Source: Cystobasidium ongulense
Taxonomy: Eukaryota; Basidiomycota; Cystobasidiomycetes; Cystobasidiales; Cystobasidiaceae
Assembly (NCBI GenBank): GCA_022835595.1
Contig: BQUP01000003.1
Coordinates: 2,156,975 to 2,220,974 of the forward strand
DNA: 64,000 nt
Direction: 5' to 3'
The first letter of the stretch is position 1. Every line of letters begins with the position of its first letter. Both the position numbers and the translations under genes were made by a program. Below the pieces are notes generated by a model. The model was not told the origin of the DNA and ran no database searches. It saw only the letters and a program-made list of their open reading frames with translations. This document shows, one piece after another, positions 33,188 to 51,860 of this stretch.

Positions 33188-34887
33188 TTAGCTACTAGCA
33201 TGGTAGATTCGGCGTTGCAACAAGTATGTTTCTAACGCTTGTGTATCACCATTATGATCAGGGTCTTGCTCTTTGACGAATTTGCAAAGGCTTTTGAAAT
33301 CTCCCTCTCTCACACCAAGCTGCTTGAATTGTGCAATGGTGTTGATACCGTGCAGACTGAAACGGCCGCACAGCTCTGCCGTTACACCAAGGTCGACGAG
33401 ACGGTCGGATGTAGTGCTCGAGCTAGAAGCTGCCGGTGTCGCAGCCGTCTCATTTGTGTAGCGGTTGTCTGCTGGTCTTGCTCTCGTTGCATTTTCTACA
33501 TTCTTGCCCTTGTCGACTGATCTTTCTTGAATGAGATTATTTAGTGCTCTTCCTTTTCCCTTTGCTTTCCTATTGCATTCAACAGAATGTTTAAGATCGG
33601 CCTGTGAGACGTACAGTAAGACACCGCACAGCAGAAAGAAGCAAGTTGTGCCGGCCAGTTTTCAGGGGCTCGTCAATCCATGGGCAACATCGGAACTGAC
33701 CTGCACAACCTTGTAGCCCTTTCCTTCTCCCAGGCATTTAGCCACTACCCTGAAGTCACACACAACTAAGTCTCTGTCGCGTAGTGAGCACTTCACTAGC
33801 GGTCGGCCTGTTGGGTACTTGCGTTCTCGCACAGTGATGTTACGACCAGGATACTGATCTTCGTGCCAGTCTTTGACCGACGCTTTGAGATCTTCGAATG
33901 TCTTGTACATTGTTCCGACTTTTGGGCTTCTGGTCACTGTTGCAAGCTAGCAAAAGCAAAGTCGTCAAGTTCAATCCTCTAAAAGGAGGCTATGGGGGTA
34001 AAGGTTTCTCTTACCTTGCTAGGCTCCTTAGCAAGTTTCGGCTTTGCTTGCTTTCTGTGCTTTACATGGCAATCCTGAGAATGTTCAGCGGTGGACTTGA
34101 TCGTTTGGGAAGAACGCGAAACGAGATTAGAGTCGGGACTCCACAAGATAGTAGAATCTGTAAGACAACCCACCTCCGTGACTTTATAAGCCAAGCCTTG
34201 TATGGTGAGCTCTATTCGGACGTTGAAATTGCAGCCCTCCATACTTTCGCAGGAGGCGGTCATTGACTGACAAATTCTATACCTCACCACCGAAGAGAAT
34301 CTACATCCAGGTGATGCAGTATACTTCTCCTTCCACCAATTTCGGAGACTGGCTTGGAATTCTCCTACGGAATAAAATTCGGCACCTATTGAAGTGGGAT
34401 CTGCCTTTTTCTTTGAACTTCGGAAGCCATAGAAGCCATAGGCGTTGTTCATCTCGGTATCTTTTGACCGTCGGAAGCGAAAGGTGCTGTTCGGTTTGGT
34501 TTTCTTTGGCAGCTTCATCGATACCTGCTTGGCTGCACTTGAATTGGTCGTGAATTCCGCCTGCTCAACTGCTCTTGGTGTATCGCTAAGTTTTTCGGAA
34601 GCAGGTGGAAGGAGATGACTGGCTGTACCCAGCGCCTGTTTATATAGTTGTGGAGAGGATTCTGGAAAGGCAGTACTTCATTAGCGACGTTACTTCCCTA
34701 TAATGGCCTCAAGCTTGCATATGAAGCCATCTCGCAACTTACCTCTGCTTCTCCTCTTGGTGGAAGACGATTTTGCTGTGCCCTGATTGTACCCTAGAAA
34801 TTCTACGTCGCTGTCGCTATCTGCCGCTTCCACAGTGCTACGCGATGAGTGCTGCATCGATGTCTGACGAGTCTTGCACTCAGACAT
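33188..34887 (-). CDS. WG1: two-module WRKY-GCM1-like zinc-finger protein
   Basis: Exons 34887-34743, 34661-34174, 34095-34015, 33946-33701 and 33601-33188; 457 residues. An acidic/Ser-rich N-terminus (DSDSDVEFLG) leads to a basic KRRSR patch and then two zinc-finger-like modules. Module A has C-x5-C-x23-HSQDC. Module B has W-H..QYPGRN, then C-x9-C-x23-HSVEC. Each HSxxC segment starts a new exon, four codons after a phase-0 intron. A Lys/Arg/Ser-rich linker precedes the C-terminal domain (CGRFSLHGINTIAQFKQLG) shared with WG2-WG4. The architecture suggests a nuclear DNA-binding protein; this is inference. The start is uncertain: the frame stays open upstream of 34887 to a possible acceptor near 34942, so a 5' exon may exist. 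WG4 has the same exon plan. Confidence 0.72.
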
Positions 34888-35510
34888 GCTCGTATGCCTC
34901 GTACTTTGTTGCTGCTGGGTGTCAAGGCTAGCTTCCAAAGTTCTATTTGGTCAGCCTGAGCTTGACTACAGCGCGCTTGTCCTGGTGGTAAACGGCGTCT
35001 CATAAACTCACTCAGTGTGAGCAGCACCAGCACCGGTGCACCATCAGCAGGTTGTTAGAAGAGAGAAGAAGAGAGGTGGAAGAACACGCGAGCATGTCGA
35101 ACATGTTGTCCGACAAGCGGTTTCCATCAACCAAAGGTAACGGTTGCATGGTGGTGGAAGCCGAAGGCCCGAAGTCAGCGAGAGCGCAGTCCCAACATCG
35201 AAATGCATCCTCGAGGCTTGTAGTCGACAGCCTTCGATGCAGAGTAGATCCGGTCCCTGCAGCGAGTCCATGCAAGGAACCATTGGCGCATTGAAGAGCC
35301 GCAGACAAAAGTCGTTCAGGCTCGCTCAAATAGCATGTCACGTGCATTACTACAATCCTACTGCGGCTACCTGCTTCCCACTAACCTCCAAATCAGAGAT
35401 GATACAACAAAGTACTTCAAGTTCAACTTCACTGCTTTTTCACTGATACTGTGCTCGTCCCCAATAGCAAATTTCATTCCCTAAATCCCGCAGCTTGTCA
35501 GATCGACTCT
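34888..35510. other. Region between WG1 and WG2
   Basis: About 620 nt between two genes on the minus strand. It contains the WG1 5' flank and the WG2 3' flank. Two minus-strand frames of 79 and 111 codons overlap each other and carry no recognised domain; part of one could be a 5' exon of WG1. Confidence 0.35.
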
Positions 35511-38500
35511 TCACTGAATAACATCGTTCTGTGCAGCTAGGCATGCCTCGATCCTCCTCCACTCTATCGACATATGCTTCTTCACTAAGTGAAGCTCAAC
35601 CTTTGTTGGGTGGCCTTTGAGATAGGTGTCAAAAGGTTCTTCATCTCGGACGAATTCCCAAATTTCCTCTATGCCTTGCGTCACTCCCGCATCAAGCAGA
35701 CTTTGTGGAGTATAAAGGTGGTGGGCTTCGAAACGCTCGACCATGTCTTCTGGCCATCCCGATTCTCGAAAAGGTATCTTCCGTGCTAGGAGGATTTGTT
35801 CTTCTTCTGACGAGAGCTCGGGCTCAAATTCAGCCCCAACAGGTTCTGTACCGTGAGCTGTTTCGTCGATTCTCGCGGGAGCTTGTGATTCTTCTTTACA
35901 AACCTGCCTCAAAGACTCTTTGTCCACTTGCATGTGGTTCGTGTCGTCATCAATCGTCGCGGAATTGCTCGAGGAAGCGCTTCCTGTGGGTTTATGCTTG
36001 CTTCGACCAATATTTTCGTCTTTCCGCATGGAAGTATGGTCACCGACATCTATAGAACCTCGATCTCTGTTTAAGCTGTTCCTGCCATCAGAGCTTGAAC
36101 AGATAAGCTTTGACTTGGAGGGTCGCGCATGCAAGGCCTGCGAATCAGACTCGGAGTCTGGACCAGAAACTGAGCTTGAGTCTCTTGCATTCCTGGTTGA
36201 ATGTGTTTCTGCTTCCTTTGCAGCGGTAGCACCATCCTCATCACTGCTGCTCTCGCTCGCTGAGTCTTCCTCGATACCGGGATCGCTTTCACCACTACTC
36301 TCGACGTCATTGTCGACATTTGATGCCTTCTCTAGCGCCTTTGAGGGCGGTGCAGCTCTCTTTTTGCGATGGCTTTGATCTGATGTTCTTGACACAAATG
36401 TTTGGGACGGTTCATCGAGAGTATACTTCCCGGACAGGCTTCTTTTTCTGTTTGGAAGCTTCGCTACAACCCTACCGTCGCCACTGGCTTGCGACACAAG
36501 TGAATTCTCTCGCGTGTGGTTTCGATTAGTTGATGTATACTATTGGAGCAAAGTTTCAGCTACGACCGCGCTCCATACAGTTTCAAAGCCAAAACTCACA
36601 TCCGTAGACTCTTGCTGCACTTGTCGATCGCAAGCTGCTGAGTGTACTACATTTGACTACAAAGGTCAGAACATGGTGCCATCAGTATAATTGCAGAGAA
36701 AACGCTAGGGTAAGACAACCAAGCTATGCCGTAACAACGCTGTTATTAACTGGACTTACTTTTGCGACAGTGTAGCCATTCTCCCTCGGATGAAAAAGAA
36801 TATGGAATGGGCACGTCAACGATCGTTTCTCTCGTAGCCTACATGATGCACTAGGTTTGTTCTTGGCTGCTCGTCGACGCAAAAGAAAGCGTGTGTTCGT
36901 GGAGTCGTTATAAACACGTAGATGCCAAAGCTGAAGGGCAGTCTCTACTGCTTCGTAGTCGGGAAATCTAGCACCTCGTTTGAAAATCTCATCCGCTGGC
37001 AGTTGCTTTTTTTCGGAATCAGACTCGGATTCTTCAGCTGACGAGGCTGATGCGGTTTCAGACGACGATGAGGAAGCCTCGGACTCAGATGAGCTGCTCT
37101 CGGAAGGTAACACTGGTGATTCAGTTTTCTTCATGGCCGCTTTGCTCGCGTTGATGGCGGCTCTGACCGAAGTATTGCCGGCATATTTTGTGTAGTCAAC
37201 GGAGGGCTTTTCCTCCTGAGGTTTTGGTCTGCTGCTCCTTGCCGGACGCCCTCCTCTTCTTGCCATTGGCCGTGACCTGCCCTCGGGAAGGGTGGAAGTG
37301 GACGATGCCGACGGCTGTCGACTACTAGGAAGCGTACGATTCAGCTGCGCATCGTTCGTCGCTGATCCATCTGTAAAGAGTAGCTTGTTTCCCATTGCAG
37401 GTTCTTTCCGTGCCGAATTCAGCATCACGCTTTCGACTTCCAAAGCTTGCTGCAGTACGACCTCCACCCCCGCTGTCTTGGACTTGTCTTTCGAGATGCT
37501 GGGCTTCGGCTGTAGTAGGTTGGATTCGGGTTCCCTGCCTGCGAACTTCGATGAGGTTTCTCTAGAGTCTGTGACTGCGGCCCCTTCGATCAGCATGGAG
37601 GCGTCCGAAGTACTGCCAGATGCGTCCACCAAGTGGGCGCCATCATCTGTTCTCGGCTAATAAATGCAGTGTTCCACAGTCAGCCCATTGATTTCGAGAG
37701 TATCAAACCACATGCGCGTGGTATCGGTAGGAAGCAGACCTGGAAAAAGCTCACTGAGATTGTACCGGCCCCAGCTGCAGAAACATACGCATTGCAGGCT
37801 GCAGAATGCTGCAAGTTGACCTTTTTGGTGAGGCACACAATCAAATCGTAAGCTTTTGCCCCAACATGTAGTCATGCCAGTAAAGAGGCTGCGGCATCGC
37901 CATAGTGCCATCCGTACTTACCTTGGCTATATGTAACAAATTGTCCTCCTTAGAACGGATGAAATGTATCCGAGCTGGACACTCCTTAATTCGCAACCCG
38001 CGCCGTAGTTTACATACGCTAGAGCTGCGAAAACGTCCTCCTGTTATCTTCGTCATACCGTGTGCCTCAGACCGGTCTGGGTAGGCATTGGCATGCCAGG
38101 CGTGTATCGCTCGTTCTGCGTCATCGACTGTCTTGTATGTGACATCGACGCTAAGAATGACATCAGACCGGCTTGGTCCAACAGAAGAGAATCCAGCTTC
38201 TCTTGTGTGAGGAGACTGTCCATGTTGTAGAGTGGTTGTAGTTGAAGCAGTGCCTACAGCTGGGACGTGGGCATTCAGAGAAGTTTGAGGTGGCTGATTA
38301 GGGGCAGTATAGGTGTTTGTGACATCCACATTCATACTAGCAGCTTCTTCTGGTGTAGATCGAGATGTTAGATAAGCAGTAATAGAGTAATGCCCAACCG
38401 TACGAGCAGCTTCTTTGAAGGCCGGTTGAGTAGAAAGGGAGGCGGCGCTAGTGGCATTGTTCATGTCCACAACCGTACGAGCAGCGTCCCCCGCACGAGC

Positions 38501-39136
38501 GGCTTCTTCTGATGCGGCTTCACGAGCAGTCTTCGAGGGTTCAGTATCGACCCCCCGGTATTCTTCGAGAGCTGCTTTCTGTTTGTGCTGCAATTCACTG
38601 GCGGAAGAGGCTACAGTAACGGCTTTCTCCAAACTCTGGTTTTGCAACCAAGATAGGACACCTTCACTGCTGTTCGAAGGGGCTTCCGGGAGAATTGCAG
38701 ATGCCAAGCTTGCAGGATTCTGAGAGGTCTCGTGCAGAGGTGGATCCGGTTGCTGCGCGCAAGAGGGTGTTTGGCCATGGTCTTCCACTGTCATGACAAG
38801 GTCGCTATCGCCATTTTCGACTCTACCCGCGTCTTCAGCTCCCTCAGGGGGTCTCGTGGTTTCGAGCTTCTGCACTTGTTGCTGTTGTAGTCGAACTTGG
38901 CGGGATATACAGAGGTTGCTATGTATGAAATCGGTTCCTACGACTATAACTTTACCAGTACCATCCCCCAGATCCCGAGCCGAGGTTGCAGCGTTACACA
39001 GATAGTCATCGTCGTCGCAGTGAGCGCATAGGATGAGGTGGTATTCTACATCTTCATCATCCTCATATTCTTCCAAGTGTGTTCGCTTGTCAGAGATTTC
39101 GAAGAGTCCATCTTGCCCAACTCGCGCTATTGACAT
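35511..39136 (-). CDS. WG2: large two-module WRKY-GCM1-like zinc-finger protein
   Basis: Exons 39136-37922, 37820-37766, 37646-36760, 36656-36600 and 36506-35511; 1069 residues. It is the longest member of the local family. Module A ends exon 1 (about residues 325-415): W-H.NAYPDRS, C-x10-C-x23-HSAAC. Module B ends exon 3: C-x9-C-x21-HSAAC. As in its paralogues, HSAAC is encoded at the start of a separate exon, four codons after a phase-0 intron. A long Ala/Glu-rich region with repeated EEAA and EAARTV blocks precedes module A. Acidic-Ser tracts (ESSSSESEASSSSSE) precede module B. The C-terminal domain reads MVERFEAHHLYTPQSLLDAG and is more diverged than in WG3 and WG4. The acceptor before 37646 was chosen by frame. 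Function is unknown; probably nuclear. Confidence 0.72.
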
Positions 39137-39720
39137 TTGTTGGAATACTTCCTATCGGGCGAGACGGCAACGGAGCAGGTGAGCGTATCGTAACACTGAG
39201 ACTAGATTGGGTTCAACCTACAAGGCTGGGCAGGATCATATCCACCTTCAACTCTCCATAGTCTGTAGCTGTTTCTGCCATTTTGCACGGCGCGCGATAG
39301 TGGCAACCTGCCCTTGAGACGCTAGCCTGGGATTTGCACCAGTATTGGTGTGCAAATGGGTATCGAGCTGCTTTGACGTGACAATACTTCCAGTGAGAGA
39401 TGTAGGTAAACTACTTGCTTGTGTCAGGCATCGTTGTGTTGGCTTGCTGGGTAGTCGTACCGTCCCTGGCCACCAGTTACAGCTCAGGCCTCTTGAAGGA
39501 GAGCCAACGGATTGGCAGCAATGTGTCTTTCAAGCATGCTGGATTTGAGCAGAGGTGATTATCGTAATGGCAAGACTGCAACTAGCGTTGGACAGGAACA
39601 GAGAGTGCAAGGCGAGGCTTGTGTGATGAACTTGCTTCATCCAGGCACGTGAGTACCGTTCGAGAAGCCCGGCACTCCAAGATCCTATACGCAATGAAGC
39701 ATATTTCCCCAAAACTTTTC
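39137..39720. other. Region between WG2 and tRNA-Pro
   Basis: About 580 nt with the WG2 promoter and the upstream flank of the tRNA. No coding region is supported on either strand. Confidence 0.4.
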
Positions 39721-39803
39721 GGGTTCGTGGTGTAGTGGTAGCATTCACGCTTCGGATTTTTCTAATTTGCGTGAGGTCGTGAGTTCAATCCTCGCCGGAC
39801 CCC
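39721..39803 (+). tRNA. tRNA-Pro (anticodon CGG) with intron
   Basis: The sequence folds as a tRNA. The acceptor stem GGGTTCG pairs with CGGACCC (one G-T pair). The A box TGGTGTAGTGG and a D stem are present. The anticodon stem is CACGC/GCGTG and the T arm GTGAG-TTCAATC-CTCGC. The anticodon loop reads T-T-C-G-G-A followed by an intron of about 11 nt (TTTTTCTAATT, about 39757-39767) and then T38. This gives anticodon CGG. A T-run at about 39809, a Pol III terminator, follows. Position 37 is A, whereas proline tRNAs normally have G37; this is odd but does not change the call. Confidence 0.85.
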
Positions 39804-40670
39804 TTGACCTTTTTGCAGAGTTGGAGCAGGTTCGTAAACTATGTTTCTCGGGGTAACGCTTGCTTTTTTGTCGCATCTCTAGTGCTCGATAGCACGGCGA
39901 TGAGAACTGCAGGGACGCAACATCAGCTCAGTGCGATTACTGTCAGTAAGTCAGTATCATAGTGTCAGGTGCGATGCAATAGTACGATAATTTCAGATAC
40001 AGATAACGAACAATCCAAGTAACCTGGAAATGGATGTTGTCAATCTACAATCTGTCCTCCCTCTTTCTCATCTCGCTTTAATGTTCATTAGAAAGTGTCT
40101 ATATCAAACATTGCAGTAAGAGCAGACTGAAGCTTGAAGAGAGTTCACTCAATTAGTGGGCCAGGCTGATCTCGATCATTACTTCAAGCTCCGCTCTGGG
40201 TGACCTGGCTTGCCTATTGCTCTTCACCTGGACTACCTAATCGATGGCACAAGTGCATATGCAATACAGCTCCACGACTCCAGTCTACTCCACGACGAGC
40301 TTTAGTCTCCAAGCTCGGCCTTCAGCGTTCTCGAAGCTTCAGACCGGAAGCGAGCTGAGAAGATGTCTGACGCTGCAGCACGGCTGGGCCAGTGGACGCT
40401 ATGGCTTCCATGACATGCTGTTTCAGATGAAAGCAGCAACTATTCCTCTCTTGTCTTCGCTTCAACGTATCGAGCTGATGCCAACATAGCGACATATCGT
40501 GATTTAGCTCAAAAGGGACAACCTCTCATCCCTCACCACACGTTAGACAGCTCAAGAGTAGCCTTGTGCCTCACCTCGTCTCTTCGACCTACGGTCTCTG
40601 CTCGACTCTCTTCTACCTGGTCTACTCAAGCGGATCTCGGCAGAAGTGCACGAAAAAGCGCGGGAGCACT
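39804..40670. other. Region between tRNA-Pro and WG3
   Basis: About 870 nt containing the Pol III terminator of the tRNA and the presumed WG3 promoter. The plus-strand frame at 40244-40489 (81 codons) has no recognised motif. The frame of WG3 exon 1 is open upstream to about 40566 but has no ATG there, so an upstream exon cannot be excluded. Confidence 0.35.
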
Positions 40671-42307
40671 ATGAACAGCGTCCAAGGCAAGAGAGAGCAC
40701 GAATCGGATGGCGAAGACAATGAAAGGGATAACGATGTCGAACTTATCAAAAGAGCATGCTTCCAAGCTCCCGACCACGTGCCTTCCACTGAACTCCCTA
40801 GACAAGACACAGGCATCAAGATACCAGTTGCACCACATGCAATTCGCGATGCACCGACTATCGGAAAAGTCTATGGATGTATCGATGACGCTGAAAAGCG
40901 TATTAAAATGTGGCACAAACAGGCATATCCTGACGGTCGTACCCTGATGCTGCGATCAGGTGGATCAATGATTGGCAAAGTTCGTCACCCTGTCTTCACT
41001 TGCAGGGAGTCTGAAAGCCGCAGCGGCAGAGGGGATATCACGGCAAAATGCGGTTTGAGAATCACACTAAAGGCCGTCGAGGACGTTGATGCACACGTCG
41101 TGGCTTCCGTAAGCTTTTTAGAGCATGTTCAGAGCAAGCGGTGCCTCGCCTACTGTACTATAAGAAGTCGCTGACCCTCAAAATCTGTGACTGTAGGCAA
41201 ATTCGAACCACTCCGATGCCTGCAATGCAAGAGCAGCAATACCCGGAAACGCCTCTCCTCAGTCTTCACTAAAGCCAACCAAGCGTTGTCATAGTCGTGG
41301 CCGCAACGCCAGTCCGGAGAATGCTACAGCTTCTGGTCTTCCTGAGCGCGCAGATCAGAATGTTTGTCAGCTGTTTGGAGACCTGGCATCACTCGAAGTC
41401 GGCCAAACATATAGGGGAACTCAGGAAACTCTGGTAAAAGATTTCATGACTTGGCATAAGCAAGTCTACCCTGAACATTCCATCTCGAGCAACCCATATA
41501 GGAAGTCAGATGGCTTGCTGAATGGCTATTTCAAATGCAAGAACAAAGCTGTCGGCATATGCAACTTCAGGATCATCTTTGATCCTCTGCCAGATAAGAA
41601 GAGGTTCGAGATAACAATGGTACGTAAATTTGGTTGACACCGTGAGGATCTGCACTAATTGAAATTTCCTGTGTTATATTTGTGCTCAGTCCGATTCACA
41701 GCATTCGGAGGCCTGCAGAAAAAGGTGCATGACTTCGAGCCGGTCTGACGGGCCAGTCAAGCGGCGCAAGCTTCATGAACCAGCCCTGGACAGGCGTAAC
41801 AATCTGTACGCACCACACAGGAATAATGAATTCGGTAGAGACAGCGATTCAGAACTTTCCGAGGTATCCAGCAGCGACGAGGACAATTCCGACAGCACTG
41901 TTGACGAACCGCCTCGCACCAAGAGTATATCGCTGACAAGCTTGCCAACACCGAGCAAGACTATAGCTACAGACAAACTCAATACTGAGGCCCCTACTTC
42001 CCGTCCCGTTGCTAGCCCGATTGCCAGCGGATCTTGCAGTATGCAAGCGCAGCCGAACATCAACAAGAAAGACCCTCCGACGATCAAATGGGTACAGATA
42101 CAGCAACCGCTTGCTATTCTGGCACCTTATGTACTCGGTCGTTTCGTCTTGCATGGCATTACAACGACGACCCATCTCTTGGAAGCAGGAATAGAAACCC
42201 GCGAGGACTTTGCAGAAGCAATCCGCCAGGTATCTAAACTTGAGCCTCAGACTCAAGGTTCGGTTGCAGAAATAGCAACCTATTTCGCTCTTAGAAAATA
42301 CCTCTAA
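40671..42307 (+). CDS. WG3: two-module WRKY-GCM1-like zinc-finger protein
   Basis: Exons 40671-41108, 41197-41619 and 41690-42307; 492 residues. Module A (end of exon 1): KVYGCIDDAEKRIKMWHKQA with YPDGR, then C-x15-C-x23-HSDAC. Module B (end of exon 2): T-W-H-K-Q-V-Y-P-E, then C-x7-C-x23-HSEAC. The HSDAC and HSEAC segments open exons 2 and 3, each four codons after a phase-0 intron, as in the other members. The linker is Ser/Asp-rich with the patch KRRK. The C-terminal domain (LGRFVLHGITTTTHLLEAGI) is very close to that of WG4 and ends in ATYFALRKYL. It lacks the extra introns that WG1 and WG4 have between the modules. The chosen ATG is the first in frame. Function inferred: nuclear DNA-binding protein. 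Confidence 0.75.
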
Positions 42308-42586
42308 AGCTGGACCAAATTGACAAGATAGCCGGAAAGGTCTTCACATCAGGATGGGAAGCGTTTTAAGTTTGAAAGGAGCGATGATGCGAATTGGAGT
42401 ACTCTATCAGCAAACGTAGCAACAAGAAGGAACAGAGTTCCTCTTTGATACCAACAAAAGGTGGTTGTAAAAGTAATGATTGCTGGAAAGCAGCTTGGCC
42501 CAATTGCTCTAGGCATCCCGATAGCGTAGCGTGGTCTGCAGATCTATAACTTCATACATGATAACATACGACCTTCGCCGCTCAAA

Positions 42587-43801
42587 CTAAGCTCGTTCAA
42601 ATGCATCCTTCAATGCCGATGTCAAGTCTGCAATAAGCTTCTTGCCCATGGTTAAGACACCGTCCATAGCCAAGAACGGATGGGGCATGCCTTTGTAGCT
42701 GAAGAGATTGAGCCATCAGTCAGCGCTTGAAGACATCTAATTCTAAAGGGAGGACTTACACCTTGAGCTGAACAGGCACCCCAGCTTGGCGTAGCTTCTC
42801 AGCGTAGGCTTCGCCTTCGCTTCTCAGGACATCCAGCTCTGCCACAGCCACGTATGCAGCAGGTAGCTTGGAGAAGTTGCTTTCAGGATAAAAGATGGGT
42901 GAAGCTTCAGGATCTTTCCAATCCGCCTCATTTGGCAGATAGTGGCGTCGATACCATAGCATCTTCACGGCAGGTAATGCAGCTGTATTTTCATATTCTT
43001 TATAGCTAGCTCTGCTTTGTCCATCCGCAGCATTGTCGGTGACTGGTACCACGAGAACTTGGAACATGATTTTGGGTACCAGCTCTTGAGCTCTCAACGC
43101 CTTGTTGGTCAAAATAGCAGCAAGGTTTCCTCCGGCTGAAGATCCTGCAACTGCCACCTTCGATACATCACCGTTCAATAGGCGGGCACCTTGCGATTTA
43201 ATCCAGATTAAGGCCTCCCATGAGTCGTATACCGCTGCTGGCCATACGTTCTCTGGTGCAAGTCTGTCAATGCAATCGTCAGCTTCTCATATGACACTGA
43301 CCATTCTAAGGAAAGGAAAATACCTGTAATCAACAGTAATGACGACGCAACTGCTGGATTCGCAGAACCTGCTGCAAACGACATTCTCGGTATTGATGTT
43401 TCCTAGAACGAAACCTCCTCCATGAAGCCACAGGAGAATGGGGTAGCCTGCAGCAGGCGGAGGCGACTTGGGTGTGAAAGTTCGGACCGCCACATCGGGC
43501 CCGTCGGAAGCTTGACGCTGAATTTGATAGTCTTTGATTGCGCCTACTTCTGACTGTTCACCAGCACCAGGAATGAGCACGCCTGGCGGATCAAGAGGGG
43601 ACCTCAGCATGTCTGTCGTTGTGGTTGACATTTCGTCTCTAGACACGTACCACTGGTTCGAGACGCTGCCACAGGCTGGTAGTGTACTTGTTGCTGATTG
43701 ATGATGTGCTTGTTGTAGAATGCAACATACTCGGGATCTAGCTTATCCACCACAGAGTCGTGTAAAGGGTAGGGAGGTTGGGGCTGTGGATCGATAGCCA
43801 T
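42587..43801 (-). CDS. HSL-type alpha/beta-hydrolase (esterase/lipase)
   Basis: Exons 43801-43651, 43612-43324, 43263-42760 and 42698-42587; 351 residues. It belongs to the hormone-sensitive-lipase (alpha/beta-hydrolase_3) family. The oxyanion motif LWLHGGGFVLG, the nucleophile elbow GSSAGG (catalytic Ser), the acid in VAELDVLRSEGE and the His in GMPHPF are all present and in the right order. There is no signal peptide, so it is probably intracellular, cleaving short-chain esters or related small substrates. It faces the NCS1 permease gene across about 590 nt, so the two could be co-regulated. The acceptor and donor choices are consistent with frame and family spacing. Confidence 0.9.
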
Positions 43802-44387
43802 TTTGAACAATATTGAAGCAGCGTTGATGGTGCTGGAAGGCGGTCAGCGGTTGGCAGAGAGTCGATATCTATGGCAGCAGATCGGTGATTCTGTTGAAGT
43901 ATGGCCACGATAGCCGCTCAGCAACACCTATGGCTGTCTGGAAGTTCTCCCATATCATATCCTGCACGCGGCAAATCCCTCGACAGGCAAGTGCCGGTGA
44001 TCCATCAGTCAAGCGGGCAAGAGCGAGCCCTGCGACAGATGCGGCTTTCGGCTCCGCTGATATCGGGAAATGCCCTTCTGACAAGTGATTCTCAAGCTGC
44101 CACCCATGCGGTAAAGGTCTAGAAAGCCAACGGGCATCTGCGGCTACTCGAGAATGAAAGAGGCAAGAGCCGCAACCGTTTCTCCCGCTTGAAGCTGTCC
44201 GATCTGGTACCGACGACGATAAGGTATGAATCGATAATATACGGTACTGGCAAGTTGACTGACAAGCTGAGCATCGGCTTCCGATTCACTTCGTCCTCTC
44301 TTCTTCCTTCACTTACTTTTAGCATTCGAAGCATCGGAGGTCGATACACCCACATCAACTTGAAGAGATCGAAAATATACCTCGACC
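43802..44387. promoter_or_regulatory. Divergent promoter region HSL esterase/NCS1 permease
   Basis: About 590 nt between divergently transcribed genes; it must contain both promoters. Short frames on both strands have no recognised motif. Confidence 0.4.
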
Positions 44388-46854
44388 ATGCCCCCTCCAG
44401 CTGACCTCTCCCGGATGGGAAAGATCAAGTTTGCGTTCTCCTCCCCGTCGAACTTCCACCAGGCCATTACTCTGGCCGATAGCTCCCGTCTATCCAACGA
44501 CGACTTGAAGCCTTCCGGGCCTGCCAGGCGTCGATGGACGGTTCTCTCGTACTTCTCGTTCTGGTGGGCCGAGAGCTGGAATGTGTCAACCTGGAGTATT
44601 GGTCAGTCAGAAGTATTACCTTTAAGCGTACTGTGAGACTAATCATGTTTTTCTGACTGACTTAGGTGCTTCCCTCGTCGCGACCGGAGTGCGTGTCGGG
44701 AGGCTATTTTGCTGCAAAGGCCGCTCGGGGAGCTGACGTGCTCTGTTCGCTAACTTCACAGATGAATATCAGAGATGCAATTCTGATTGTCCTATTCGCC
44801 AATCTACTGTCCGCTGTCGTCATCGTTCTCAACAGTAGAGCAGCGGCAAAGTACCACCTTGGGTTCCCTGCCTTGGCGAGAGCCTCCTTCGGCACCTATG
44901 GCTCATACTTCTACATCTTGCTCCGAAGCATTCTCGGCATCATCTGGGTAGGTATTTAGTCACTGCGATTTATTCAGGATACGGAAAGCTGACCTGACAT
45001 CGCCGTTGTTTCTGCAGGGTGGAGTGTGAGTCATGTTCAAAGTGTTCTCGTTCCCCCTTTCTGTTTCTGATCAAGTTCTTCCTTCACAGTCAGCTCTACT
45101 TCACCGGGCAGTTCATATCCATCGTACTTCGATGCATATTCAGTGGCTGGAAGAATATTCCCAATGGAATTCCTGTATCGCAAGGCATCACCACTCAAGA
45201 AATGATAGGCTTCGTTCTGGCTCTCTTCGTAACAATGCCTTTCTTGTGGATCCACACCAGCAAGATTGCGCCTGGTATGTTCTCGCCATTGCATATCTGG
45301 GTAGCTTTGAAGCTGAGACACCGTGCTTCCTTCACTAGTGTTTGCTGTCAAATCCGTCATCATGCCCATCGCTGGTCTTGGTCTTGTCATCTGGGCGACA
45401 AAGAATAATGGCGGTGTCTCGACAAGTACCGTTGAAATCGGTGCTCGCCCTGAATCTACCACAGTTTTTGCGTTCCTAGTCATGTCGCAATTCAATGCCA
45501 GTAAGTAGAGACAGCCGAGCTACTCACCTAAGCATCTGCTAGCAAAGCTGAGAAATCACCTTGATTACACAGTTATGGGATCCAACTCAGCTCTTCTCAT
45601 TACTGCCCCAGACATCGCTCGTTACAGTAGATCACCGAATGGCCAGATGTGGGGTCAGCTTATATCCCTGCCAGTTGCGCAAACATTATGCGCAAGCTTT
45701 GGTATTATCGTCACTGCCGCCGTTCAAAACATGTGGGGCGTCGCGTACTGGAACCCCTATGCCCTACTTAACGGAATCCTGGACCAGAACTACAATTCTG
45801 CTGCGCGAGCTGGATGCTTCTTCGTCGGAATCTCATTCGGCTTCGCAACGTGAGTCTTCTCGGATCATTGGGGTATTTCTGTTGATATACAACAATCTGA
45901 CGACTGATTTGAACACCTACAGACTAGGAACTTCCCTTGCTTGTAACTTCTTACCTTTTGGCGCAGACGTCACAGCATTGTGTCCGAAGTACTGCAACAT
46001 TATTCGCGGTCAAGTACGTCCATTTCCGTTAAAATGTGAGATTCCTGCTGACTTTTGCTCTTGTACGAAGGTAATCTGCCTCATCCTCGCTTTCGCAATT
46101 ACACCTTGGCACATCCTTACATCTGCCCCTACTTTCCTGAACTTCCTCGGGTAAAGGCCGTTTCCTCCTATCTTCGCAATCGCAGCTGATGCCGAGTTGT
46201 CTTCGTAGAGGGTACGCCATCTTCCAAGGAAACATTGTTGCTATTATGCTCGTCGACTGTGAGTGCATGTCAGAAGCTCTGGCAAGTAGGTGCTGATGCA
46301 GTTCCGTCCTACTAGATTTCATCGTTCGTCGAGGCAACATCGATATTCGAGACTTGTATTCTGAATCAAAAGATGCCAAGTACTATTACACCGCTGGAAC
46401 CAACTGGAGGGCAGTCTTTGCCTTCATCGCTGGCTTCACCGTCCCCCTTCCCGGTAAGTCGCCTTGCCAATCTGGACATTCCACCGAGTCAGTGAGAGAC
46501 TGCTCGGACAGGCCCCAGCTTGTACTTCTTTGAGATCTACCGCTGATCTTAATGTGTCAACGTTCAGGCTTCATCGGCTCTTTCGGCACGACGACAGTGA
46601 GCGTTGGGGCTTCTCGGCTGTATGCTCTTGGTTGGGCTCTTTCCCTCGTCATTGGAGGTCTCAGCTATTGGATCGCCTGCCTCATCTTCCCTGTTCCAGG
46701 CGACGATAGCCAGCATCGCTTTGAAGAGCTCGCACAGTTCTATGACGACCATCCTCTTGAAGACCTTGACCAAGTGGAGGAGATCAGCAAGATGGACGCA
46801 GTTGGACGGGTTTCTAGCATGGAAGACAAGGTGGACTCGAAGGAGACTGTCTAG
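44388..46854 (+). CDS. NCS1-family nucleobase/allantoin-type permease
   Basis: Twelve exons: 44388-44601, 44666-44688, 44762-44947, 45018-45025, 45090-45274, 45339-45500, 45573-45849, 45923-46013, 46071-46150, 46209-46258, 46316-46453 and 46568-46854; 566 residues, normal for fungal NCS1 carriers. The N-terminus has WWAESWNVSTWSIGASLVATG, the first helix pair of the family. FPALARASFGTYGSYF matches the conserved ARASFG signature. ITAPDIARYSR, DFIVRRGNIDI-like and Y-Y-T-A-G-T-N-W segments are also typical. About twelve membrane segments can be traced. Substrates in this family are uracil, uridine, allantoin, cytosine-purines, thiamine or nicotinamide riboside; which one applies cannot be told by eye. 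Exon 4 is only 8 nt and exon 2 is 23 nt. Confidence 0.9.
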
Positions 46855-46930
46855 GAGTCGAAAGTATTGTAGAAGGATAACGTATCGATAGTTGATGTAG
46901 ACATGTGTGCACAGTGGTAGTCGTGAATGT

Positions 46931-47221
46931 TCAGCCTGACTTTCTCAATCGAATAGGTCCCTTGACGTCTTTGAGGTTGTCCAGGTCGACCTTCTGCCCC
47001 CTCTGCGTGACCTCAATCTGACCCTCAGAATACAGCTTGTAGGCCTCTTGTCGAACTTGCTCCATTGCACTTCTCCAATCCTCGCAATGCAGCGTCTGCA
47101 GCTCTTCAGCAGTTAGAGCTCTTGCCACTTCAGATGGGCAGCACGTCTTTGGATACTCTCGTTTGCCGACCATACTGAGAATGTTGGAACGGAGCAGGTT
47201 GTCCTCGGGAGTATTGCTCAT
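46931..47221 (-). CDS. DUF3253-like small protein
   Basis: A single-exon gene of 96 residues. The pattern NILSMVGKREYPKTCCPSEV then ARALTAEE.. and WRSAMEQVRQEAYKLY... with IEVTQRGQKV matches DUF3253, a small winged-helix-like domain common in bacteria and fungi with no defined role. The chosen ATG (47221) follows an upstream in-frame stretch without ATG. It shares a 180-nt divergent promoter with PRP43 and is convergent with the NCS1 permease. Confidence 0.85.
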   Translation of the reverse strand: MSNTPEDNLLRSNILSMVGKREYPKTCCPSEVARALTAEELQTLHCEDWRSAMEQVRQEAYKLYSEGQIEVTQRGQKVDLDNLKDVKGPIRLRKSG

Positions 47222-47399
47222 CTCGGATCCACTTCCCTGAATTTTGGCCGGTTGCTGGCTGGTCAACGTGCCGCTCACTTGCTCGCCTCGAAATCGACTT
47301 CAATTTTTGCAGCTTGATCCAGCCTTGACACGTGTGAGAAGGATATCGAGCAGGGAAAGCAGGACAGACCCTTGCGCATCATTCAAAGCTGCGGTCAAG
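47222..47399. promoter_or_regulatory. Short divergent promoter DUF3253/PRP43
   Basis: Only 178 nt separate the two start codons, so both promoters and leaders overlap here. No individual element is obvious. Confidence 0.45.
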
Positions 47400-50038
<2,639 letters not shown>

Positions 50039-50137
50039 ATAGACATCAGCCTTTCCTACAAGTATTTAAGCTGCCAGATGTTCCTACGCTACTGTCGTAC
50101 GATTCATCCTTTTCAATTGTTCTTCTAGCTGCTAGCA

Positions 50138-51860
50138 CTACAGGTACGCTCTCAAGGTGAAGAATGTCGCTATCTCCGCCATTGAGCCCTGGGTATGTGG
50201 CTCTAGTTTGCAGACCTGGCGAACAGCTTCTGCGAACTGCTCACAAGTCTCTATACCTGCATCTAAAAGGTGTTCCGTAGTCGTAATACCGTGCAGTGCA
50301 AACCGAGTGCGCATATAGGGTGCAATTGTCCTGAGCGGTTCCTGCACTTCGACCCATTTGCTTTCAGGAGGAGGTCTTGCCTGAGGATGGGGCTGAGGCT
50401 GAATAACTCTTGATCCAGATCCGCTCGCGACTTCGGCCACATCGGGACCCTTGGCGGCGGCTTCTTTGTCCTTTGTGTTTGCAGCCGTGGGTTTGTTAGA
50501 CTGCGGACGGGAGGAGGGACTCATCGCCAATTTACTTTTGTGGGAAAGCGGCTCTTCATCGCTACTATCGGAAGACGAAGCGATGCCTCTGGCTTGCGAT
50601 GACTGGCCCGCGTGATCTATGTGGTCGCGGTGCTTGGTGCGAGCTCGCGATGGTGCTTCTGCAGCCGAGGGCCTGCTACTTCTGCTGTTTTTAACTGCTT
50701 CATTGCACGCCGAGGAGTGGGCAGTATCGGCCTGCCAGACGCACGACCCGACATCACAGGACAGAGCATTTTGCAGGTCAGGTATTGTCAAATAATCATT
50801 CAGTCGCAAAAGGAATTTGTGTCTCACCTGGATGACTGTATATCTACCCTCACCAAGGCTCCTAGCTACCACAGTGAATCCACATACTATCCGACCCTTT
50901 TCCCGTTTTGAGCATGTTGCTGCAGGTCGACCACCTAAGCCCCACACTGCGCGCCGAACAACGATACTACGATCAGGGTATTGCTCTGCATGCCATTCTT
51001 TGACCATTGCTCTGAAGATTTCGAAACTTCTGTAGCTCGTCCCAATTATCGGCGGGCCGGTACCTGAGGGAAACTAGAAATAGCAGAGCATGGTCAAGAA
51101 TTGGTTGAATGCGTGCGAAATTCAACGACGGTACTCAATAGTGGACTCTTACCTGATTAGCCGTTATGGCGGTATTCAGTTCTGCTTGCTTGGTACAGTG
51201 TTTGGAGTGTAAGGTGCATGACTGTAGACATTTAAGAAAGATAGAAGCGGATGTTAGGCGAAGATAAATTTCAACAACGGAGCACCCTGATTGCTACGAA
51301 CCTTTGTGACTTGGTAGCCCAATCCATGTAGCATGGGCTCCATTCTGACCATGAAACTGCAATCCCTCTTCCTTTCACAGGTCGCAGTCACTGTTTTGCA
51401 GGTTCCATGTTCCGATTCTGAAGCGTACTTCAACCCAGGAAATGAAGCAAAGTTGTCGTTGTACCAGGTTCCGAGGCTAGCTCTGAACTGTTCAACTGAA
51501 TCAAATGACGCGCCTATTGAAGAAGGAAGCACCGGTTCTGGAATTGATTTGTAATACAGTGTCAGCTAGGAGAGTCCAAAAATTATGTACGTAGTCGTAG
51601 TCGTCTTCTCAAGATTCACCTCGGCGTCGCTTCAATGAAGTGGACGATCCTGCTGTGGTACGACGCTTCGAAGAGATGGACGATGCGGCTGTACTGGAGC
51701 TGACTCCCGTAAACTCCACGTCACTATCGTCCTCTTCTACTTTTACAGTGCTGTTGGAGACATCGACCTGTTCAACGACGGGTTCTGGGCTATTCTCGCG
51801 CTTGATGAATCTACCTCGAGAGTCGAGGCCACGTCTTGAATGAGGAACCGGTTGATTCAT
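50138..51860 (-). CDS. WG4: two-module WRKY-GCM1-like zinc-finger protein
   Basis: Exons 51860-51620, 51537-51302, 51221-51153, 51073-50828 and 50731-50138; 461 residues. The exon plan is the same as in WG1: phase 1 after exon 1, phase 0 at the other three introns, and an identical 246-nt exon carrying module B. Module A: C-x5-C-x23-HSKHC. Module B: EWHAEQYPDRS, C-x9-C-x22-HSSAC. The N-terminus has an acidic DDSDVEFTG block and a basic patch (KRRTT..LKRRRG) as in WG1. The linker is rich in Ser/Lys/Pro/Gln. The C-terminal domain (RTRFALHGITTTEHLLDAGI, ending ATFFTLRAYL) is closest to WG3. The start is uncertain: the frame is open upstream to 52028, where no ATG lies. It sits convergently only about 100 nt from PRP43. 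Confidence 0.73.

Follow-up and report, generated by a model that had tools for sequence, protein, structure and literature searches.

Four paralogous genes, WG1–WG4, lie between positions 33188 and 51860 of the window, i.e., of the whole 64,000-nucleotide stretch of Cystobasidium ongulense DNA that was analysed (contig 3, 2156975-2220974; genome 19.77 Mb, 19 contigs). Each gene encodes two copies of a Cys/Cys/His/Cys module, and the arrangement noticed in a preliminary description of this DNA was confirmed and proved rather more extensive than stated there. The four genes probably form a local cluster of putative zinc-dependent DNA-binding regulators, made as arrays of domesticated MULE-type fingers. 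Judged from the sequences, the family would be a branch of the WRKY-GCM1/FAR1 superfamily with several fingers per protein, for which we infer the function.

The eight modules and the four genes

Each gene was scored with a profile trained on the other three genes (jack-knife; 2000 shuffles per gene); bits of module 1/module 2: WG1 – 74.5/42.0 (best shuffle 10.0); WG2 – 42.0/35.7 (3.6); WG3 – 37.4/36.0 (11.3); WG4 – 63.7/43.5 (9.3). The alignment of the eight modules has six invariant columns (W, C, C, H, S, C), and the pattern C-x5-15-C-x21-23-H-S-x2-C was found in all eight (WG1 module 2, counted by hand: C-x9-C-x23-H). A phase-0 intron is located exactly four residues upstream of the His in 8/8 modules; since this common position is evidence independent of the profiles, the modules appear to be copies of one exon-split ancestor. 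The earlier claims of four paralogous genes with two modules each, of both Cys, the His and the final Cys being kept in all eight modules, and of the C-C-H-S-x2-C spacing were thus borne out by the jack-knifed profiles and the intron position, by the alignment and by the pattern, respectively.

Gene models of WG1–WG4 were obtained by predicted splicing at GT-AG introns; all four spliced frames are free of internal stops, and their starts and ends agree with the coordinates of the preliminary description. The models contain four introns each (WG1, WG2, WG4) or two (WG3), and the proteins have acidic/serine-rich linkers besides the two modules and a small C-terminal domain. In seven WG comparisons the proportion of synonymous differences (pS) was 0.65-0.92, near or beyond saturation, against a proportion of nonsynonymous differences (pN) of 0.21-0.56, and for that reason the family is taken to be old and under coding constraint.

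WG1 (33188..34887, minus strand, 457 residues): five exons, 34887-34743, 34661-34174, 34095-34015, 33946-33701 and 33601-33188. Module 1 (34048..34404, minus strand; residues 135-227) contains intron 2, module 2 (33554..33931, minus strand; residues 244-336) contains intron 4. WG4 (50138..51860, minus strand, 461 residues): five exons, 51860-51620, 51537-51302, 51221-51153, 51073-50828 and 50731-50138; module 1 (51177..51532, minus strand; residues 83-174) with intron 2 and module 2 (50687..51058, minus strand; residues 188-279) with intron 4. The W-H...Y-P signature is altered in the first modules of these two genes, 2/8 in total, to WWKEKYT (WG1) and WYNDNFA (WG4). Two of the 14 WG introns, namely WG4 intron 4 (50732-50827, 96 nucleotides) and WG1 intron 2 (34096-34173, 78 nucleotides), are multiples of three and stop-free in frame; their retention would add 32 (WG4) or 26 (WG1) residues directly ahead of the His of the zinc site and might inactivate the module.

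WG2 (35511..39136, minus strand, 1092 residues): five exons, 39136-37922, 37820-37740, 37656-36760, 36656-36600 and 36539-35511; module 1 (37782..38173, minus strand; residues 322-418) with intron 1 and module 2 (36609..37002, minus strand; residues 651-747) with intron 3. At the start of WG2 (38900-39031) a stretch ending in C-x24-H-S-N-L-C was observed that may be a decayed third module; it scores 2.5 bits, equalled by seven stretches in 2000 shuffles. WG3 (40671..42307, plus strand, 492 residues): three exons, 40671-41108, 41197-41619 and 41690-42307; module 1 (40845..41241, plus strand; residues 59-161) with intron 1 and module 2 (41386..41734, plus strand; residues 210-302) with intron 2.

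Superfamily assignment and the relative on contig 11

Profile of the WG modules versus PDB: Aft2 (4lmg) was the sole match at an expectation value (E) of 10 or less (whole sequence, E 0.045; best stretch, E 0.13). Both Cys and the His are in register in this alignment, W..YP and HS are in common, and the stretch scores 17.2 bits, versus 3.1 with the profile in reverse and a maximum of 6.9 among 300 column-shuffled ones. Comparison by hhalign, with few or single sequences on the side of the known families, gave for Aft2 75.5% (P 2.4e-5, 30 columns, second Cys to His), for WRKY 2.1% (P 0.023, with the ligands Cys, Cys and His in register) and for GCM1 0.1% (12 columns, versus a single sequence). 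By the rule given in the preliminary description, fingers of the WRKY-GCM1 type combine two Cys, a His separated from the second of them by about 22-23 residues, and a fourth ligand; the last ligand of the WG modules is a Cys at +4, not a His at +2.

The AlphaFold2 model of WG4 module 2, read straight from DNA and hence with the 32 intron-encoded residues before the His, consists of a helix and strands (38-40, 51-58, 61-74, 77-85) in the order beta-alpha-beta-beta-beta-beta; the predicted local distance difference test score (pLDDT) is 86-94 in six of the first eight ten-residue blocks.

Contig-11 gene (contig 11:44874-51668, plus strand): a search of the genome with the PF03108 profile gave three places, of which one exceeds the cut-off with 27.6 bits (contig 11:49603-49770) and two do not reach it. 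The place over the cut-off lies in a gene, missed in the preliminary description, whose spliced prediction comprises 2082 residues (start codon uncertain) and about eight modules, A-H, ending in HSIAC, HSSNC, HSARC, HSPAC, HSREC, HSATC, HSDGC and HHEMC, respectively; a ninth such string, HSYDC, lies within module B. With the WG profile, modules A, C, D, E and G score 5.9-13.7 bits versus 4.8 for the best of 2000 shuffles; B scores 4.7 bits, F -1.3, and H was unlisted, so that the pattern is the sole ground for counting B and H. Module F, tested alone, is over the PF03108 cut-off (26.7 vs 25 bits). Profile-profile comparison of the WG modules with contig-11 modules D-H gave 95.2% (P 2.9e-8), and, above 1000 shuffles, the D-H profile recovers the two modules in WG1 and in WG4 and one of the two in WG3; versus Aft2 the D-H profile alone gave 6.6 bits. 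Four of the eight contig-11 modules (E-H) have an intron at the WG position, in phase 0 and four residues before the His; in B and C a phase-2 intron is placed in a Trp codon nine residues before the His, in D the intron lies between the two Cys, and A is intron-free.

The C-terminal end of the contig-11 protein was aligned with the WG1 C-terminal domain with z 10.4 (none of 2000 shuffles reached the score), and it is homologous to that of WG1; in the case of WG2, WG3 and WG4 the score was reached by 1435, 238 and 151 of 2000 shuffles, and the family C-terminal profile misses the domain (-4.2 bits). Neighbours of the contig-11 gene, by eye: upstream, on the opposite strand, a kinase-like frame; downstream, frames resembling WD repeats.

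Because of the Aft2 profile match and of the chain leading from the WG modules over the contig-11 modules to PF03108, the WG modules are assigned with moderate confidence to the WRKY-GCM1 superfamily, probably to its FAR1/MULE/Aft side rather than to WRKY or GCM proper. Of the label "WRKY-GCM1-like" in the preliminary description the superfamily part is thus retained, and WRKY proper (hhalign 2.1%, no WRKYGQK) and GCM proper (0.1%) are not.

The following results weigh against this assignment. None of the eight WG modules is over any Pfam cut-off, and none has an NCBIfam match. The best sub-threshold Pfam family, PF03108, was listed for 2/8 modules (E 0.031, 14.4 vs 25 bits), and unrelated families followed at E 0.066-0.2; the computed WG consensus matched nothing in Pfam, and of four column-shuffled consensus controls two matched unrelated families, at E 0.015 and at E 0.17. 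Since shuffled controls draw families and the WG consensus draws none, the sub-threshold Pfam matches prove nothing alone. PF03106 and PF08731 (Aft) were unlisted in the all-Pfam scan of the modules, in which WRKYGQK does not occur; FLYWCH was likewise unlisted in that scan, no search aimed at it having been made. PF03101, PF08731, PF03106 and PF21599 gave no match in the genome; these negatives are weak because the controls for PF03101, PF03106 and PF21599 matched nowhere and that for PF08731 only below the cut-off. In Foldseek the WG4 module 2 model with its intron-encoded insert had no match at E <= 0.001; none of the 50 of 249 matches listed for that model is a WRKY, GCM or Aft entry. Seven of the eight contig-11 modules are without PF03108 match, module F alone having one; the best Pfam row of module E was PAS_5 (E 0.0055, below the PAS_5 cut-off), and the D-H profile missed both WG2 modules and WG3 module 1 (1000 shuffles).

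Search for further members: matches of full-length WG4 and WG3 in the genome were confined to the cluster, and full-length WG2 found only itself. Such a full-length search is blind to distant members, as is evident from the contig-11 gene. The DNA pattern TGGCAYN9TAYCC (W-H-x3-Y-P) occurred at 22 places of the genome versus 12 for the backward pattern; five of the 22 are WG modules. The other 17 (3-kilobase loci, six frames) were rejected as members, the highest module score, 12.6 bits, coming from a frame that looks, on inspection, like a flavin monooxygenase motif. The two sub-cut-off PF03108 places (contigs 10 and 8) were also rejected, no module above 6.1 bits being present there. The total so far is five genes with 16 modules in the genome, a lower bound, since WG2 and two parts of the contig-11 protein, used as queries, each retrieved nothing but themselves.

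Comparison with known systems: the order G-x-x-(F/Y), helix, C..C-x-F, (Y/V)-x-V, H is that of the MULE/FAR1-FHY3 domain (PF03108, PF03101), over whose PF03108 cut-off 1/8 contig-11 modules passes. Unlike that domain, the modules occur here several per protein and end in H-S-x2-C, the last ligands of FAR1 being usually H-x-H; the WG modules are below Pfam cut-offs and accompanied by a C-terminal domain without Pfam match above cut-off, and the genome is without a match to the MULE catalytic domain (PF10551: 0 matches; the control matched in 4/14 genomes). Aft1/Aft2 share with the WG modules the aligned Cys, Cys and His as well as W..YP and HS, but Aft2 has a single domain and H-S-H, and the genome is without PF08731 match. 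Group I plant WRKY proteins also have two zinc modules per chain, with Cys, Cys and His in register by hhalign at a probability of just 2.1%, but the WG modules lack WRKYGQK and a PF03106 match.

In the passages concerned, PMC4161868 cites Babu et al. for the placing of the Cys/Cys/His/His site of Aft in the WRKY-GCM1 type and names Cys291/Cys293 as the iron-sensing residues of ScAft1; PMC4350883 summarises Babu et al. 2006 as placing FLYWCH near WRKY and GCM1, doubts WRKY, FLYWCH and GCM1 as one useful family, and mentions single-domain WRKY genes in Mucorales-type fungi. Babu et al. 2006 stands also in the reference lists of PMC9713403 and PMC4817252. According to a passage of PMC2937223, within-chain repeats of WRKY, AP2 and B3 are exclusive to plants. 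PF03101 counts in PMC4469406 are 14 (Melampsora larici-populina), 4 (Puccinia graminis), 1 (Ustilago maydis) and 1 (Sporisorium reilianum); FAR1, FLYWCH and SWIM are tabulated across MULE groups in PMC6446971, and animal transposon-derived FHY3 and FLYWCH factors are treated in PMC10027918. Unlike the WG proteins, FLYWCH and basidiomycete FAR1 proteins are not described, in the corresponding parts of this literature, as tandem arrays with a WG-type C-terminal domain. No description of such arrays in fungi turned up in the literature searched, which leaves uncontradicted the earlier statement that no fungal family of this layout has been described; the negative is weak, the founding paper of Babu et al. 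2006 being known via citing papers.

C-terminal domain, N-terminal motif and composition of WG4

C-terminal domain: a domain of about 75-90 residues with invariant R, F, H, T, G and G, missed in the preliminary description, is common to the four WG proteins: WG1, 33191..33406 (minus strand; residues 386-457); WG2, 35514..35789 (minus strand; residues 1001-1092); WG3, 42065..42304 (plus strand; residues 413-492); WG4, 50141..50380 (minus strand; residues 382-461). The AlphaFold2 model of the WG4 domain is helical and of moderate confidence (mean pLDDT 68.3; core blocks 80-81); it has five helices, of which the first spans four residues. The Foldseek matches (best E 4.9) and the PDB matches to the N-terminus of RAD51B (E 0.2) and to a designed protein (E 0.13) were rejected as too weak for naming; Pfam gave one weak row, FCH (E 0.021, 1/4 domains).

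N-terminal motif: D-x-D-V-E-(F/L/Y), also missed earlier, is present within the first 60 residues of 4/4 WG proteins, at residue 25 (WG1), 27 (WG2), 20 (WG3) and 45 (WG4), and we take it to resemble a SUMO-interaction motif. The pattern was chosen post hoc; in a broader form, accepting also I, V, M or W in the last position, it was found in 2, 23, 21 and 27 of 20000 shuffled N-termini (WG1–WG4, respectively). One D-S-D-I-E-F-V was seen by eye before module D of the contig-11 protein.

Composition of WG4: identities with WG1 are 21/44 in the N-terminus, 35/84 in module 1 and 44/90 in module 2; the linker has 27/83 identities with that of WG3 (z 5.3), and the C-terminal domain is identical to WG3 at 54/79 positions versus 14/52 to WG1. 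In the module tree WG1+WG4 was obtained with 0.991 in the approximately unbiased (AU) test, the rival pairings having 0.003 and 0.013. In the C-terminal tree WG3+WG4 was preferred (AU 0.767); WG1+WG4 was rejected by AU (0.037), not by the Kishino-Hasegawa (0.097) or Shimodaira-Hasegawa (0.115) test, and WG2+WG4 was not rejected (AU 0.276). WG4, a point likewise missed in the preliminary description, is likely a mosaic, with WG1-like front and modules and WG3-like linker and C-terminal domain, formed by last-exon exchange between paralogues; it is graded as likely and not as firm because the C-terminal tree rejects WG1+WG4 by AU alone and leaves WG2+WG4 standing. The exchange would not be recent, given the saturation of synonymous sites between the C-terminal domains of WG3 and WG4 (pS 0.82). 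Fast change of the C-terminal domain of WG1 is the alternative.

Function, origin and neighbourhood

As putative DNA-binding regulators, the WG proteins would act in the nucleus. Each module would be a WRKY-GCM1-superfamily finger of FAR1/MULE/Aft type, with an N-terminal helix lying against a small antiparallel sheet and one zinc ion bound by Cys-Cys-His-Cys; it would contact a few bases by the sheet, and the array of two modules, or of about eight in the contig-11 protein, could read a long or bipartite site. Self- or partner association may run through the C-terminal bundle, and the acidic segments may recruit co-factors. The module would have been domesticated long ago from the DNA-binding domain of a Mutator-like transposase and then multiplied, together with its intron, by internal and gene duplication.

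A function of the modules as zinc-stabilised protein- or RNA-binding domains of the same superfamily, with DNA binding lost and the proteins acting as scaffolds, is rather unlikely. The altered signatures of WG1 module 1 and WG4 module 1 go together with a net charge of just +1, which weighs against the reading as DNA-binding fingers, and both the long acidic linkers and the about eight modules of the contig-11 protein would suit a scaffold; however, the net charge of the WG modules, +1 to +10 over all, is +5 to +10 in six of the eight, and their profile relative Aft2 is, in its PDB entry, an iron-regulated transcriptional activator. Still less probable is a new alpha-beta zinc fold of unrelated origin that reached the C-C-H-C spacing by convergence; the Foldseek result for the 50 matches listed and the lack of Pfam matches above cut-off for the WG modules would be consistent with it, but the Aft2 match, in which the two Cys and the His align and whose score exceeds that of 300 shuffled profiles, argues against it, as does the chain from the WG modules over contig 11 to PF03108.

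The WG genes could also be remnants of Mutator-like transposons, i.e., captured or decaying DNA-binding parts of a transposase, in view of the match of contig-11 module F to PF03108, the family of the MuDR transposase, and of an inverted pair (I13; 20 nucleotides, 80%, purine-rich) that flanks WG2 alone. This was rejected as highly improbable: the four frames are open across 457-1092 codons, evolve under constraint and are interrupted by two to four introns per gene, among the 21 inverted pairs at 31000-53500 the longest has just 34 nucleotides at 71% and lies inside genes, and PF10551 is without match in the genome, with which the earlier remark that nothing transposase-like accompanies the genes agrees.

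If the reading as arrays of domesticated MULE-type fingers is true, arrays of WRKY-GCM1/FAR1-type fingers would not be limited to the known plant and animal proteins, and a fungus would have built arrays of two to about eight modules, accompanied by their own C-terminal domain and mostly beneath the detection limit of Pfam. Annotation would gain a candidate regulator family, and the domestication of a transposase finger would be traceable in steps: the conserved intron, module duplication and the likely last-exon exchange. A wider proposal, which we regard as speculative and hold to be doubtful, is that of a polydactyl system evolved from MULE-type fingers in parallel to the animal C2H2 arrays; its proteins would combine two to about eight C2HC WRKY-GCM1 modules, an own C-terminal association domain and the SUMO-interaction-like D-x-D-(V/I)-E-hydrophobic motif, would diversify by module duplication and last-exon exchange, and may serve to recognise repeats or mobile elements, perhaps MULEs whose catalytic domain is undetected in the genome, and to silence them.

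Neighbourhood: the interval between WG3 and WG4 (42756-50038) holds, by Pfam, an alpha/beta-hydrolase frame (Abhydrolase_3) and a helicase frame (Helicase_C), and on account of these the WG cluster is broken up by seemingly unrelated genes. A piece (45552-45853) of a frame between the hydrolase and helicase frames was without Pfam match. Pfam matches above cut-off among the ten window frames scanned were Suf, VID27_PH, Pkinase, Abhydrolase_3, Helicase_C and others.

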